In this document: positions 1,260-16,849 of the stretch, in pieces
Layout of the letters: every line of letters starts with the position of its first letter
How positions within the stretch are numbered: the stretch's first letter is position 1
Made by a program: the position numbers and the translations under genes
Assembly (NCBI GenBank): GCA_003551005.1
Contig: PULR01000043.1
Coordinates: forward strand, 1 to 39,414
DNA length: 39,414 nt
DNA from: Mollicutes bacterium
Lineage (GTDB): Bacteria > Bacillota_I > Bacilli_A > Izemoplasmatales > Izemoplasmataceae
Reading direction: 5' to 3'
The notes under the pieces: generated by a model
What the model saw: only the letters and a program-made list of their open reading frames with translations
The model's database searches: none
What the model was told of the DNA's origin: nothing

Positions 1260-2420
1260 CTAGAGGAACGCCGCGATCTCGATCTCGCCGGCGCGGGCGA
1301 GCAGGTGACGCTTCAGCCACTCGCCGAGGGCGGCGCCTTCAAGCTGTTCGCTCTCGACGATGGTGAGCAAATTCGCACTGGCCGCGTAGCCGATGGCGTA
1401 GTATTGAATGAGCAGCGCGTCGACGCTGCGGAAGCTATCCAGGGTCCAGCATTCGGGGGCTTCCACCTCGAGCAATCGGCCGTAGTGATGCTGATAGCGT
1501 TGCTGCGGCGTGTCGACATTGTTCCAGAGGTCGAGTTCGAACTTCGCGCTGAGTGCGACCCGGCTCGCCTCGAGATGTTCAACCGATTTCAGGGAATCCT
1601 GTTCCGTTTGCGTACAAACATTATCGATCAGCAGGTTTTCGAGTACGACCGCTAGAAATTCGTCGCTAGCCGGAGTCAGAAATTTTTCGTGACCGGGAGG
1701 CTCATGATAAAGATACAGCAGGCCATGGGATAGTTCGTGTAAAAACGTCCTCAGCGCGAACGGAGTATCTAATGGTCGGGTGGCGATGTGGACCCGGCCG
1801 TTTTCGAACAGTCGGGCGAATCCGGCCATGCCTTGTGGGTCGATGTGCACCACGAGCCTTGAATCGAGGGCCTCAAGTCCCAGCCCCTCGATCAGCCGCT
1901 GGATGATTGCTTCGGGGTCGAGGGGCTTCTCAAAGGGCCGGAAGGTCCTTAGATCCTCGAACCAGGTCGCCCAGGAGAACCCGTGCCGGTCGATGAGTTC
2001 CCGCGCTTTGGGCAGGTGCTGCTTGAGCACGGTATCGAGCGCGGACTGGATGGTCTCTTCGTGGATGCGGTTCTGCTCGCAGTCGAAATCCTTGTAGTCG
2101 CGGTACCCCAGGGTCTGCGCACGCATCGTGCGCAGCTGCATCAGCCGTTTGACGTGCGGAGCCATGGCCCTCGCACGCGTCGAGGGCGGGCCTTGTGGGA
2201 GGCCGGCGTTGGTGTCGAGCTTCTCGCGCAGGGCGGCCACCTCGGGGTGGTGTTCGATGCGGGCGCGTTTCTGGACGGGGTGTTCTGGGTCCTCCTCCTC
2301 GGCGCAGGCATGCAGCTCTCGACTCACTGCGAGCAGGTCGACGGATTCACCTTCGACGTAGCGACGCCATTCGAGACGATGATACGCATAGAGATATTCG
2401 GCGAAACAGGTCGCAGCCAT
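1260..2420 (-). CDS. short M3-like zinc metallopeptidase
   Basis: Probable zinc-dependent oligopeptidase of 386 residues. HELSH at residues 229-233 is an HExxH zinc site. The preceding region, with LGYRDYKDF around 105-113, resembles the helical lead-in of M3 (oligoendopeptidase F/thimet) enzymes. A downstream acidic segment (SDEFLAVVLENLL, 253-265) could supply the third ligand through Glu255 or Glu262. The usual M3 pattern HExGHxxH is not matched exactly: the Gly is Ser and the second His is absent. The protein is also shorter than typical M3 enzymes of about 560-600 residues, lacking most of the N-terminal half. No signal peptide is seen. It is last in the obgE-ruvA-peptidase run, 11 bases after ruvA. 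A divergent gluzincin of another family is possible. Confidence 0.6.
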   Translation of the reverse strand: MAATCFAEYLYAYHRLEWRRYVEGESVDLLAVSRELHACAEEEDPEHPVQKRARIEHHPEVAALREKLDTNAGLPQGPPSTRARAMAPHVKRLMQLRTMRAQTLGYRDYKDFDCEQNRIHEETIQSALDTVLKQHLPKARELIDRHGFSWATWFEDLRTFRPFEKPLDPEAIIQRLIEGLGLEALDSRLVVHIDPQGMAGFARLFENGRVHIATRPLDTPFALRTFLHELSHGLLYLYHEPPGHEKFLTPASDEFLAVVLENLLIDNVCTQTEQDSLKSVEHLEASRVALSAKFELDLWNNVDTPQQRYQHHYGRLLEVEAPECWTLDSFRSVDALLIQYYAIGYAASANLLTIVESEQLEGAALGEWLKRHLLARAGEIEIAAFL

Positions 2421-3000: not shown

Positions 3001-4284
3001 TCACTCCTTGAGTTCGAATTCATATCCGAGAATCCGGACGGTGCCGCCGGTCTTCACCCCGAGCTTGCGGAGTTCCTTTTCGACGCCCATCGCGCGCAGG
3101 GCGCGGGCGAAGCGCCAGACCGCCTCGTCGTTGTTGAAGTCGGTCATGGCGAAGAGGCGTTCGACGCGCTCGCCCTTGACTTCCAGCACGCCGTCTTCGG
3201 CCCGTTCGATGGTGAAGGGCTCCGCTTCCCCTTCGTAGCGGTAGACGACGGTCTCTTCATAGGCGTCCTCCTCGTAGAGCGGGGTGGCCTTGAGTTCGGC
3301 GAGCCGTTCGGCCGTGCGCTTCATGAGCCGATCCAGATTCCATCGGGTGTAGGCGCTGATCGGGACAATTTCGACTTCTGCGGGGACCTTCTCCTTGAAG
3401 CGCTCGAGGTTCGCCTCAGCGTCGGGGGCATCCATCTTGTTGGCCACGACGATCTGCGGGCGCTTCTCCAGCCCGGCGCCATAGCTTTTCAGTTCTTTGT
3501 TAAGGGATTGAAAATCCTCGTAGGGATCCCGGCCCTCGATGGCGCTTATGTCGATGACATGGAGGAGCAGGCGGGTCCGTTCGACGTGGCGCAGGAACTG
3601 ATGTCCGAGCCCTTTGCCTTCGGACGCCCCCTCGATGAGGCCGGGGAGGTCGGCGACGACGAAGCTGCCTGCTTCATCCGCGTCGACGACGCCCAGATTG
3701 GGAGTCAGCGTCGTGAAGGGATAGGCCGCAATCTTCGGTTTGCTGGCGGAGATGGTGCTGATCAAGGTGCTTTTGCCCACACTCGGCAGACCAACCAGCC
3801 CGACATCGGCAAGCAGCTTGAGCTCGACACGGATGGCGAGCGTCTTCCCGGGTTCGCCCTTCTCGGCGAAGGTCGGAGCCGGGCGTCGCCCGGAGGCGAA
3901 GCGGGCGTTGCCGCGTCCGCCACGTCCACCTTCGAGCAGGCGCGCCCGCTGTCCATCACGGGTGATGTCGGCGAGGACCTTGCCGGTCTCTTCGCTGAAA
4001 ACGGTGGTCCCCAGGGGGACTTTGAGGACAAGGTCACCACCATCCTTGCCGTGTTTTTTCTTGTTTTCACCGCGGCCGCCGTCCTCGGCTTTGCGATGAC
4101 GGTCGTAATGCAGCTCGAGCAGGGTCGAGAGGCCTTCGTCGCCTTCGAAATACACATGGCCGCCCCGTCCGCCATCTCCTCCGGAGGGGCCGCCCTTGGG
4201 CACGTACTTTTCCCGGCGGAAGGCGCTCATGCCGTCCCCGCCCTTGCCGCTTTCAATGGTCATCTTCACGTGGTCGACGAACAT
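3001..4284 (-). CDS. obgE: Obg family GTPase
   Basis: Ribosome-associated GTPase acting in 50S assembly and stress control. The 427 residues show all three domains. The glycine-rich Obg fold covers about 1-158 (GKGGDG, GGPSGGDGGRGG). The G domain has GLPSVGKST (165-173), TTLTPN (191-196), DLPG (212-215) and NKMD (282-285). The C-terminal OCT domain covers roughly 345-427. The start overlaps the 3' end of the GNAT-kinase gene by 19 bases, so translation may be coupled. The ribosome site is weak (GGATG about 9 nt upstream). In many bacteria obg follows rplU-rpmA directly; here an ABC cassette and the GNAT-kinase gene separate them by about 3 kb. Confidence 0.97.
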   Translation of the reverse strand: MFVDHVKMTIESGKGGDGMSAFRREKYVPKGGPSGGDGGRGGHVYFEGDEGLSTLLELHYDRHRKAEDGGRGENKKKHGKDGGDLVLKVPLGTTVFSEETGKVLADITRDGQRARLLEGGRGGRGNARFASGRRPAPTFAEKGEPGKTLAIRVELKLLADVGLVGLPSVGKSTLISTISASKPKIAAYPFTTLTPNLGVVDADEAGSFVVADLPGLIEGASEGKGLGHQFLRHVERTRLLLHVIDISAIEGRDPYEDFQSLNKELKSYGAGLEKRPQIVVANKMDAPDAEANLERFKEKVPAEVEIVPISAYTRWNLDRLMKRTAERLAELKATPLYEEDAYEETVVYRYEGEAEPFTIERAEDGVLEVKGERVERLFAMTDFNNDEAVWRFARALRAMGVEKELRKLGVKTGGTVRILGYEFELKE

Positions 4285-5294
4285 GTCGGTTCACATCCAA
4301 TCGTGCGCAGCCAGAGTTCGAGGTCACGAGGCGTGTCGAACTCCAGTACGCGTTTCTTGTTTTGCAGGGGTCTGAGCCGCGCCTCGATGAGCTTTCGCTG
4401 CGGCTCGAAGAAGGCGACATACTTGAGGAAATCCTGATCGATGCCTTCAATGCAGCCGGTCGCCATGTCGCTGCGATAGGTGTGCTTGTATCGGCGCTCG
4501 CGCTCGATAATACCCTTGAGCGCGACGGAGCGTTCATACTTGAGCAGGATCACAGTGTCCGCGAATCGCAGCCGGTCCTCGAAGGAAGGGTTGTGGAGGT
4601 AGTTCCCATCCATCACGAACCGGGGATGTCGGCGCATGTAGCTTTGTAGCTTGCGCTGAAAGGCCTCGGGCTCCATGGCCGTCCAGTTGCGTAGCCAATA
4701 GACGGTGTCCAGATGCAGCACCGGCTGGTTCAGCCGCTTGCCAAGCCGGCGGGCGAGCGTTGTCTTCCCCGACCCGCTCGCACCGAGGATGAGGATGCGT
4801 CTGAGCCCGTCGGCATTGAGGCTGCGCTCATAAGCGTCGCGATGAATGCCGGCTAGATAACCGCGACGCTCGAACTGGTGTCTTCGCAAAAGCCGGCGCA
4901 TGGGGCCGTTGGCGGGGTGGGTGTCGGTCCTGAGGGTTCCCGCCCCCGAGCTTGCCGCCCGGCAGGCGGCATGCACGAGGAGTTCATCGGCGACACCCCG
5001 CCCCCAGGAACTCGGGTCGACAAGCAGCCGGTGGATGATCGGCGAGGAGGATCCGTGCCAGCGCACCGCGCGATAAGCCGGTTCATCGTCGGTGCAGAAA
5101 GCGTACACCCCAAGGATCCGGCCTTCCTGTTCGTGAACGAACAGTCTGTCGGATTGAATGTCCTCCTTGAAATGGGGCGCGCGAGGGTAGGCCGTCGTCC
5201 ATTGATTCACGCCCCGTTTGTGCATCGCCTGGATGGTGCGGACGCTCAAGGCGTCCAGTGCGTCAATGTCTGCTACGTTTGCCTGTCTGATCAT
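4266..5294 (-). CDS. fusion: GNAT acetyltransferase + P-loop nucleotide kinase-like domain
   Basis: Two domains in one 342-residue protein. Residues 1-160 look like a GNAT N-acetyltransferase: an N-terminal MIRQANVADIDAL, and the acetyl-CoA loop motif IIHRLLVDPSSWGRGVADE at 86-104. Residues 166-342 look like the adenylate-kinase-like family often called DNA topology modulation or FlaR-like: Walker A GASGSGKT at 171-178, LHLDTVYW, VMDGNY and a YKHTYR-type segment. Substrates of both halves are unknown. The frame is open upstream to 5366, but the ATG at 5294 has AGGTGA 5 nt upstream and lies just downstream of a consensus -10 at 5311-5316, so the longer form is unlikely. The 3' end overlaps obgE. 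Confidence 0.8.
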   Translation of the reverse strand: MIRQANVADIDALDALSVRTIQAMHKRGVNQWTTAYPRAPHFKEDIQSDRLFVHEQEGRILGVYAFCTDDEPAYRAVRWHGSSSPIIHRLLVDPSSWGRGVADELLVHAACRAASSGAGTLRTDTHPANGPMRRLLRRHQFERRGYLAGIHRDAYERSLNADGLRRILILGASGSGKTTLARRLGKRLNQPVLHLDTVYWLRNWTAMEPEAFQRKLQSYMRRHPRFVMDGNYLHNPSFEDRLRFADTVILLKYERSVALKGIIERERRYKHTYRSDMATGCIEGIDQDFLKYVAFFEPQRKLIEARLRPLQNKKRVLEFDTPRDLELWLRTIGCEPTCSSTT

Positions 5295-5310
5295 ATTTTC
5301 ACCTAAACGC

Positions 5311-5316
5311 ATTATA
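5311..5316 (-). promoter_or_regulatory. -10 box for the GNAT-kinase/obgE/ruvA run
   Basis: Read on the minus strand this is TATAAT. The region 17 nt upstream is T-rich and has no clear -35. It lies just after the ABC cassette's terminator and 17 nt before the ATG at 5294, giving a leader of only about 10 nt that still contains the AGGTGA ribosome site. Confidence 0.55.
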
Positions 5317-5330
5317 CTACACCACCTGCA

Positions 5331-5362
5331 AAGAAAAAAGGCCGCCCGGTAAAAGGTCGGCT
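5331..5362 (-). terminator. terminator of the ABC cassette
   Basis: Read on the minus strand, AAGCCGACC and a CGGGCGGCCTT arm form a stem with a small bulge, followed by a run of six T (plus-strand A-run at about 5332-5337). It starts immediately after the permease stop codon. Confidence 0.65.
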
Positions 5363-6130
5363 TCAAGTGAGGGAACGTCGCTTGAGAATCGTCACCGCCA
5401 TACTGAACAGGCCCGTCGCCAGGACTGTCGAGAGGATGACGGCGCTCAACGCAGGCCTCAGGCTGGCCTCACCCGCCATGATGCGCAGCGGCAGGTTGCA
5501 CAGATGGGAGGGAAGATAGCGCAGCGCCCCGGCTTCGACCATGGAAAGCCCGGTGAAAAGGAAAAAGACGACCAATGCTGGCAGCGCGCCGCCGAGGAAG
5601 CTTTTGAATGCAAAGGAGGAAAAGCAGGCGATGGCGACGAGCAGTTTAAGGAAAACGGCGAAAGCGAGGGTCGCAAGCGCGAACCGTCCCGGATGGAAAC
5701 CAGGAAAGACCGCGGCGGTCTGGAAGGCGAACAGGACACTTCCAAGCACCAGTGCAGCGAACCAGACGCTGTTTAAGACGACGAGCTTCGAGACGGCTTA
5801 CTGCAGTCTGCTGATGGGCTTGACGAACACAAACGCGAGGTACTGCCGGGTGAAATCCTTCGTGAAGAAGGCGGCGGCCACAAACACCACGACCAGCGTG
5901 TAGAGCTGGGTCATATTCGAAAAGAACTGTTCATAGGCGTCGTGGACGCTCGGGGGTGGGAAGTCGATGTTTTCTACGCCTTCCGCCCGCAACGCATATT
6001 CAATGAGCACATCAAGATAGCGCGCGGTGACGATCGAAAGCGAAGCGAGGAACACGGCGAGCCCGACGAAGACTAGCCAGCGCGGGGTTTTCAGAAAATA
6101 GGTCGCGTCATAGCGTATCAGCGTTTTCAT
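5363..6130 (-). pseudogene. ABC-2 type permease interrupted by an in-frame TAA
   Basis: Membrane subunit of the ABC exporter encoded just upstream. The start at 6130 has GGAGG 6 nt before it and overlaps the ATPase gene by 23 bases. The first 110 codons hold two membrane segments (WLVFVGLAVFLASLSIV; LYTLVVVFVAAAFFT) and end KPISRLQ. A TAA follows at 5800-5798. The same frame then continues for 144 codons (AVSKLVVLNSVWFAALVLG onward) with four further hydrophobic segments to a TGA at 5363. Joined, the halves make about 254 residues, normal for ABC-2 permeases, and the KPISR-x-x-xxxSK junction is typical of the family. One base change from a tyrosine codon would explain the stop. A GTG at 5749 lacks a ribosome site, so separate translation of the second half looks unlikely. 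Real mutation, sequencing error and readthrough cannot be distinguished here. Confidence 0.8.
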
Positions 6131-7025
6131 CCAGCACCTCCAGGAAGACTTCTTCAAGGGAGGGAGCGCGCCGCTCGACGGCGTGGATTGTCTGCGGCGC
6201 CTCAGATAGGCTTCTTAACAGATACTTCGTCGCGCCATCCTGAAGCGTCACCGACAAATTCCCCGCCTGCACGCTGAGGGTTTTGAGAAACCGACGGCCT
6301 TGTAAAAATGCCTTCAGGGCCGGCGCGTCGTCGCAGACCACGTGGAACGCCGGTTGAATCCATTTCTGCTGGATGTCCACCATCCGTGATTCCAGAATCA
6401 TGCGCCCGCGGTCGATGAGTCCGACCCGGTCGCAGATTTGCTCGGCATCCGCGAGGATGTGCGTGGAATAAAGAACTGTCCGGGTCTTCTTCAGCTTTTG
6501 CATCAGATTAAGAATCTCACGCCGTCCGATCGGGTCCAGAGCGCTTGTGGGTTCGTCCATGACAATCAGATCGGGCGAGCCCATCAGGGCCTGTCCGATC
6601 GCCAGCCGTTGCCGCATGCCTCTGGAGAAAGATCCCACTTTGCGGTTGATCGATCTGAGGCCGACGAACGACAGCGCCTCCTCCACGGCATCCCTATCGA
6701 CGGTGCCGTCGCCTTGGAAGGCCGAGGCGAACTCGAGGACCTCGCGGGCCTTCAGATACTCCGGAAAGGCCGGAACATCCGGAACGAATCCGATTTGTCG
6801 CTTGTAGGCGATGGAATCGTCGTCAATCATTTCCCCGTCGAAGGTGATCCTGCCGCCATCGCGAAGCATGAGACCGAGCAGGATGGCCAGCGTCGTCGTC
6901 TTGCCGGCACCATTGCGCCCGACAAACCCATAGACTTCGTGGCGCGTGAGGGAAAGATTGACGCCATCAAGCGCCTGCAGTCTGCCGAATCGCTTGCGCA
7001 GCGATTCAATCTTCAGAAACGACAT
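6108..7025 (-). CDS. ABC transporter ATP-binding protein
   Basis: Energising subunit of an ABC-2 type exporter. The 305 residues carry Walker A GRNGAGKT (36-43), signature FSRGMRQR (133-140), Walker B LIVMDEPTSALD (153-164) and the switch histidine STH (187-189). About 85 residues follow the nucleotide-binding domain, as in the drug and bacteriocin-type exporter ATPases. The gene overlaps the PLDc_N-like gene upstream by 20 bases and the permease downstream by 23, so the three are translationally coupled. The ribosome site is weak (GCAGAG), which fits coupling. The substrate cannot be inferred. The ATPase itself is intact although the permease is broken. Confidence 0.93.
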   Translation of the reverse strand: MSFLKIESLRKRFGRLQALDGVNLSLTRHEVYGFVGRNGAGKTTTLAILLGLMLRDGGRITFDGEMIDDDSIAYKRQIGFVPDVPAFPEYLKAREVLEFASAFQGDGTVDRDAVEEALSFVGLRSINRKVGSFSRGMRQRLAIGQALMGSPDLIVMDEPTSALDPIGRREILNLMQKLKKTRTVLYSTHILADAEQICDRVGLIDRGRMILESRMVDIQQKWIQPAFHVVCDDAPALKAFLQGRRFLKTLSVQAGNLSVTLQDGATKYLLRSLSEAPQTIHAVERRAPSLEEVFLEVLDENADTL

Positions 7026-7230
7026 AGTCTCTGCCCGCGAGAAAATACACGATCCAAGCGAACGTCACCAAGGCGACAATGAGGGACCAGCCGAGTTTGT
7101 CAAGACCGCGTGTACGCCTCTCGGCACGATTAATATCGAAGATTGCGAACACGCGGATGGTCAGTTCAACAAGTACGAGCGGGCTCAACAACACCACCCA
7201 CATGGGAATTTCCACAAGCACAGGAACCAT
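7006..7230 (-). CDS. small two-helix membrane protein, PLDc_N-like
   Basis: A 74-residue protein with a hydrophobic segment at about 9-28, a basic loop (RAERRTRG) and a second segment at about 46-65 ending YFLAGRDY. This plan matches the short PLDc_N (phospholipase D nuclease N-terminal, no nuclease) proteins that, from general knowledge, often precede ABC-2 exporter genes in Bacillota. GAGGAGG lies 8 nt before the ATG at 7230. It is first in a three-gene operon with its own extended -10 promoter. Its role may be in exporter assembly or immunity; this is inference from position. Confidence 0.7.
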   Translation of the reverse strand: MVPVLVEIPMWVVLLSPLVLVELTIRVFAIFDINRAERRTRGLDKLGWSLIVALVTFAWIVYFLAGRDYVVSED

Positions 7231-7395: not shown

Positions 7396-7683
7396 TTATT
7401 CAACGGGATAGACGGACGCACGTTTTTTCTTGCGGCCCATCCGTTCAAAGCGCACGACGCCGTCGATTTTGCTGAAGAGCGTGTCGTCGCCGCCGATGCC
7501 GACGTTGTGACCGGGGTGCACTTTAGTGCCGCGCTGGCGATAGATGATGCTGCCCGCACGGATCGCTTGACCGTCGGCGCGCTTGCTGCCGAGGCGTTTC
7601 GCTTCGGAATCGCGGCCGTTCTTGGTCGAGCCGACACCTTTCTTCGTTGCCATGAATGTCATTGGGCGGATGTCTATGAGCAT
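7396..7683 (-). CDS. rpmA: 50S ribosomal protein L27
   Basis: Large-subunit protein near the peptidyl transferase centre. The 95 residues contain the conserved [26 protein letters not shown] and GGDDTLF blocks. GGAGG lies 9 nt before the ATG at 7683 but only 3 nt before the one at 7689, so 7683 is chosen; an internal ATG at 7653 (MATKKG) has no ribosome site. The chosen start leaves an N-terminal extension of about a dozen residues before KKGVG, as in Bacillota L27 precursors that are trimmed by the Prp protease. The expected LQFFA-type cleavage site reads PMTFMA here, and no prp gene lies between rplU and rpmA. Confidence 0.95.
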
Positions 7684-7729
7684 GTTCATTCACCTCCGGG
7701 GTTCTTCATAAAGTTTGATTCCGGCTGGT

Positions 7730-16623: not shown

Positions 16624-16849
16624 AAAAAACGCCCTCAGAGACTAAGGGCGACTTCATCGCGGTACCACCTTACTTCCGGCTTCTCAGCCGGCGCTTGACA
16701 CGTTAACGCCGTGCTACGGGATGGGCTACTGCGCTTTTCACCGATCCGACTCGGGAGCGACCTTCGACGGGTCCGCCTGCCGGTTTTCAGCACCACCGGC
16801 TCTCTTGGAGGCTGTGCCGTCTACTCTTCTCCGTCCTCGTGTTACTGTA
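16624..16849 (-). promoter_or_regulatory. T-box leader (valine) controlling valS
   Basis: A tRNA-sensing transcription attenuator. On the minus strand the T-box core AAGGTGGTACCGCG is at 16671-16658. It is followed by the terminator stem CGCCCT...AGGGCG (16650-16630) and a T-run (16629-16624). Upstream, a Stem I begins near 16840 and includes an AGTA motif. On the 3' side of the stem that ends in CCGTC is a loop GAAGGTCGC containing GTC at 16761-16759, the predicted specifier codon for valine. Uncharged tRNA-Val should stabilise the antiterminator and let valS-folC be transcribed. Confidence 0.95.

Follow-up and report, generated by a model that had tools for sequence, protein, structure and literature searches.

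A single in-frame TAA at a conserved tyrosine position in the permease gene of an ABC-2 exporter operon from Izemoplasmataceae

The permease gene of an ABC-2 exporter operon in a Mollicutes bacterium (family Izemoplasmataceae) is interrupted by one in-frame TAA at a position where most relatives encode tyrosine. We consider it probable (about 0.6) that the exporter permease was broken by an ordinary recent nonsense mutation at this tyrosine of a conserved loop. The stop base was read from a single assembly and may be a consensus error. A new way of protein synthesis is not the likely reading; most likely the TAA reflects either a mutation or a one-base error. All positions refer to the window, i.e. 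the complete stretch of 39,414 nucleotides that was analysed (contig PULR01000043.1 of assembly GCA_003551005.1).

The interrupted frame and its operon

The minus strand from 6130 to 5363 comprises 110 sense codons, the TAA at 5800-5798, 144 sense codons and a TGA at 5365-5363. Thus, the TAA is the sole interruption of an otherwise open ABC-2 permease frame of 255 codons, which encodes MKTLIRYD...KPISRLQ, stop, AVSKLVV...LKRRSLT. The initial annotation had given the same coordinates and junction, and both were confirmed on the reverse strand. Within this window of 59% GC there are 25 cases of two long ORFs sharing a frame on either side of a single stop, most of them antisense or end-to-end genes, so such pairs are not rare. 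Therefore, the argument for a split gene rests on homology and not on ORF length. Chance adjacency of the two halves is excluded, since both match consecutive parts of the single-ORF proteins of relatives. The junction had been placed in a conserved cytosolic loop. The relatives share the motif [SA]KP[ILV]xRxxYxxSK, which supports the conservation, and from ABC-2 topology the loop probably faces the cytosol. Type V permeases have a six-helix fold with a cytosolic coupling element between TM2 and TM3. For this fold in the present permease, a single-sequence AlphaFold model was too poor for use (mean pLDDT 53.9).

Table 1. Positions of the exporter genes and of the features around the internal stop in the window
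Feature	Position	Strand	Remarks
74-aa membrane protein, PLDc_N type	7006..7230	-	conserved operon partner
Intact ABC ATPase	6108..7025	-	PF00005, E 3.3e-27; weak DrrA1-3_C match at the C-terminus
Permease, N-terminal half, 110 codons	5801..6130	-	TM1, TM2 and first part of the KPISR loop; most near relatives share 43-53% identity in their N part
In-frame TAA at conserved Tyr codon position	5798..5800	-	Tyr in 23/26 relatives, 2 Phe, 1 Ile
Permease, C-terminal part, 144 codons and TGA	5363..5797	-	no further lesion; best relative 41% identity
First in-frame start past the stop, GTG	5747..5749	-	no Shine-Dalgarno sequence

The permease is the third gene of the operon, following those of the small PLDc_N-type protein and the ATPase on the same strand (Table 1), and its ATG overlaps the 3' end of the ATPase gene. 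As in the class of ABC-2 or type V exporter permeases, an ATPase is thus co-encoded and overlaps the permease start. The ATPase had been described as intact, and so it is; it matches PF00005. In most of the relatives' loci the order of small protein, ATPase, N-terminal half and C-terminal half is kept (tblastn). In the seven relatives examined, rplU, rpmA and obgE do not lie beside the operon; hence, its location is not conserved, whereas the three-gene unit is. A scan of genome contigs with the ATPase as query returned distant ATPases only and no permease orthologs.

In its layout, the locus resembles the YxlEFG operon with a PLDc_N protein, an ATPase and an ABC-2 permease, the likeness being one of layout alone. 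YxlE, whose gene lies beside those of YxlF and YxlG, is presumably also of the PLDc_N type, and the three-gene layout would then agree with that in the window. In Bacillus subtilis, the homodimeric type V permease YxlG and its ATPase YxlF form YxlF2G2, of unknown substrate (PMC11466899). The only solved structure reached by the family profile was NosY of NosDFY, with a weak match (E 0.014). The alignment spans the second transmembrane helix, the loop containing the stop and the third helix, but neither NosD nor any other nos context is present at the window locus.

Orthologs and constraint on both sides of the stop

With the C-terminal half as query, orthologs were obtained from 26 additional genomes of this family; two further matches, one in a genome of another family (G099) and one at a second locus of genome G042, were weak. 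A profile of 25 full-length permeases was then run over 49 genomes of the family, which was compared with one genome per species. It gave 33 strong matches including the window, two of them shortened by contig ends or partial matches. An internal stop, the one TAA, was found in the window copy only (1 of 33), and no relative in the family has a two-ORF form. At the stop position, within the motif KP[IL]xRxxYxxSK, the initial annotation had expected a tyrosine codon, and the comparison with the 26 relatives agrees (Table 1). Judged from these orthologs, the ancestral codon was almost certainly one for Tyr. A search of viral contigs with the junction, the third base of the codon being left free, gave no match.

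Like its intact relatives, the permease would comprise about 255 amino acids and its gene adjoins that of an ABC ATPase. ABC2_membrane_2, ABC2_membrane_3 and ABC2_membrane_4 (PF12679, PF12698 and PF12730) are matched by 24, 21 and 21 of the 25 intact relatives, respectively, whereas in the window the frame is cut and neither half matches ABC2_membrane profiles when searched singly.

GC3 is 0.755 in the N-terminal half, 0.743 in the C-terminal half and 0.715 in the ATPase. The terminal branch of the window takes shares of 0.053, 0.056 and 0.058, respectively, of the tree length on one fixed tree. By comparison of these branch shares, no relaxed constraint was detected in the C-terminal half, and its 144 codons contain neither a second stop nor a frameshift. 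Shuffled sequence of the same composition stayed open over this length in 3.9% of the trials. Of the well-conserved residues, the window keeps 27 of 35 in the N-terminal half and 11 of 18 in the C-terminal half; the latter value is at the low end of the range among relatives (10-18), where lineages with intact genes are equally low. Since the C-terminal half shows no decay, the stop should be very recent, a consensus error or bypassed. A very recent stop would leave the C-terminal half unrelaxed, so this result is compatible with a young pseudogene. A recent mutation, a consensus error and some remaining full-length product would fit the lack of decay equally well.

Origin of the stop codon

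We propose that a type V ABC-2 exporter operon encoding a PLDc_N protein, an ATPase and a permease took one nonsense substitution in its permease gene. If the base is real, this gene would be a very young pseudogene. Translation would end after 110 residues containing two membrane helices, the remaining helices would not be made, and the ATPase would be left without a complete permease partner from its own operon. Transport by this exporter would presumably be lost, and presumably lost recently. Of the three options in the initial annotation (recent loss, two chains or stop readthrough), recent loss is the best supported, with intact orthologs, no other lesion and no detectable relaxation. An in-frame stop that is absent from the orthologs marks the gene, by its sequence, as a putative nonsense pseudogene. 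As in other bacterial pseudogenes of this type, there is one in-frame stop, the orthologs of sister species are intact and the gene is otherwise readable; unlike them, the permease shows no other decay so far, and its base is known from the assembly alone. The genome has one other ABC2_membrane_2 permease, at C62, which is intact; a match to an ABC ATPase lies some 260 bases away. Consequently, ABC-2 export in general has not been lost.

The strongest competitor, clearly less probable than the mutation although far from negligible, is that the organism's gene is intact and that a single wrong base, from the consensus or from a mixture of strains, produced the TAA. Such an error would account for a lone base in a gene that is otherwise fully constrained and unrelaxed, and it would suit the draft assembly with its 65 contigs, a fragmentation expected of a metagenome bin. 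Single-base errors are, however, rare at the usual short-read depth, and the reported contamination is merely 0.05%. Broken genes in the genome were sampled by family searches and by the window's own ORFs. No stop was found in 43 ABC-ATPase matches of the source genome, and in the window no other long ORF looked broken, which speaks against an error. In a class-wide search, two of about 119 Prp matches contained one stop, one of these being a TGA that may reflect a code with TGA as Trp. One interrupted gene per few dozen is unremarkable.

It is improbable that the UAA is read through, e.g. as Tyr, and that full-length permease is still made. The C-terminal half is as constrained as the N-terminal half, and UAA differs from the Tyr codons at the third base only, which makes Tyr a plausible near-cognate insertion. 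Yet UAA is the least leaky of the three stops in bacteria, with readthrough of 9e-4 to <1e-5 (PMC11052298). No suppressor tRNA was found: a covariance search gave 40 tRNA genes, and their anticodons according to ARAGORN are all sense, with no UUA among them. The RNA past the stop is not unusually structured (folding against shuffles, z +0.4 and +1.4), so that no stimulatory structure was found. A stop used for programmed readthrough would be conserved among orthologs, but this one occurs in no relative, and the family offers no second case. UAA also serves as a normal terminator at 6 of 37 gene ends in the window. Reassignment of the code throughout the genome was rejected, since UAA terminates rpmA, lon, tig and other genes. 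For these reasons the readthrough option finds no support, and the idea that the species keeps the UAA as a valve for low-level exporter expression, with tyrosine inserted to give some full-length permease, is less likely still.

Synthesis of the permease as two assembling chains, by re-initiation past the stop, is even harder to credit. In its favour, each half is an open frame, and the chain would break in a loop, which might tolerate this. The GTG at 5749 is, however, the nearest in-frame start, 48 nt past the stop, and initiation there would omit the conserved SK motif with its invariant Lys. No ribosome site was found near the junction, and with all full-length orthologs of the family in one ORF this option is likewise unsupported.

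The split permease thus gives no evidence for recoding. Taken alone it has little significance, since draft genomes often contain consensus errors and genes lost through one stop. For annotation, the exporter is disrupted in assembly GCA_003551005.1 and intact across the family.

Long-form L27 and other features of the window

A side observation on ribosomal protein L27 may matter more than the split permease. The rpmA gene (7396-7689, minus strand) has a strong Shine-Dalgarno sequence, GGAGGTGA, and encodes L27 with an N-terminal extension of 16 residues. The gene immediately before it is rplU, and no prp gene separates the two. The extension is also kept in 28 relatives, where the residues in front of the alanine that would start the mature protein are CM, LM, LL, LY or CE versus the usual FF. 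A later start codon cannot explain all of these proteins, because three of the variants have no Met before the mature N-terminus. A review attributes a Prp gene to every species whose L27 is of the long form (PMC9405229). Prp (PF04327) is present in 119 of 149 genomes of the class, but neither the 49 genomes of the family nor those listed for the order gave a match above the cut-off. Seven good genomes gave none even at E 10. Hence, these sequences are candidates for long L27 without Prp, in which another protease may process L27 or the extension may be tolerated.

The ORF at 4284-5366 (minus strand) encodes a GNAT acetyltransferase domain fused to a nucleotide kinase-like domain of the FlaR or "DNA topology modulation" type. 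A protein of 386 amino acids (1260-2420, minus strand) carries a HELSH-like metalloprotease motif and has no Pfam match at E 0.001. Within the family, the GC content of orthologous loci varies between 27% and 59%, with the window at the top. A T-box leader (16641-16846, minus strand, 127.5 bits) lies just upstream of valS, which is an ordinary arrangement.
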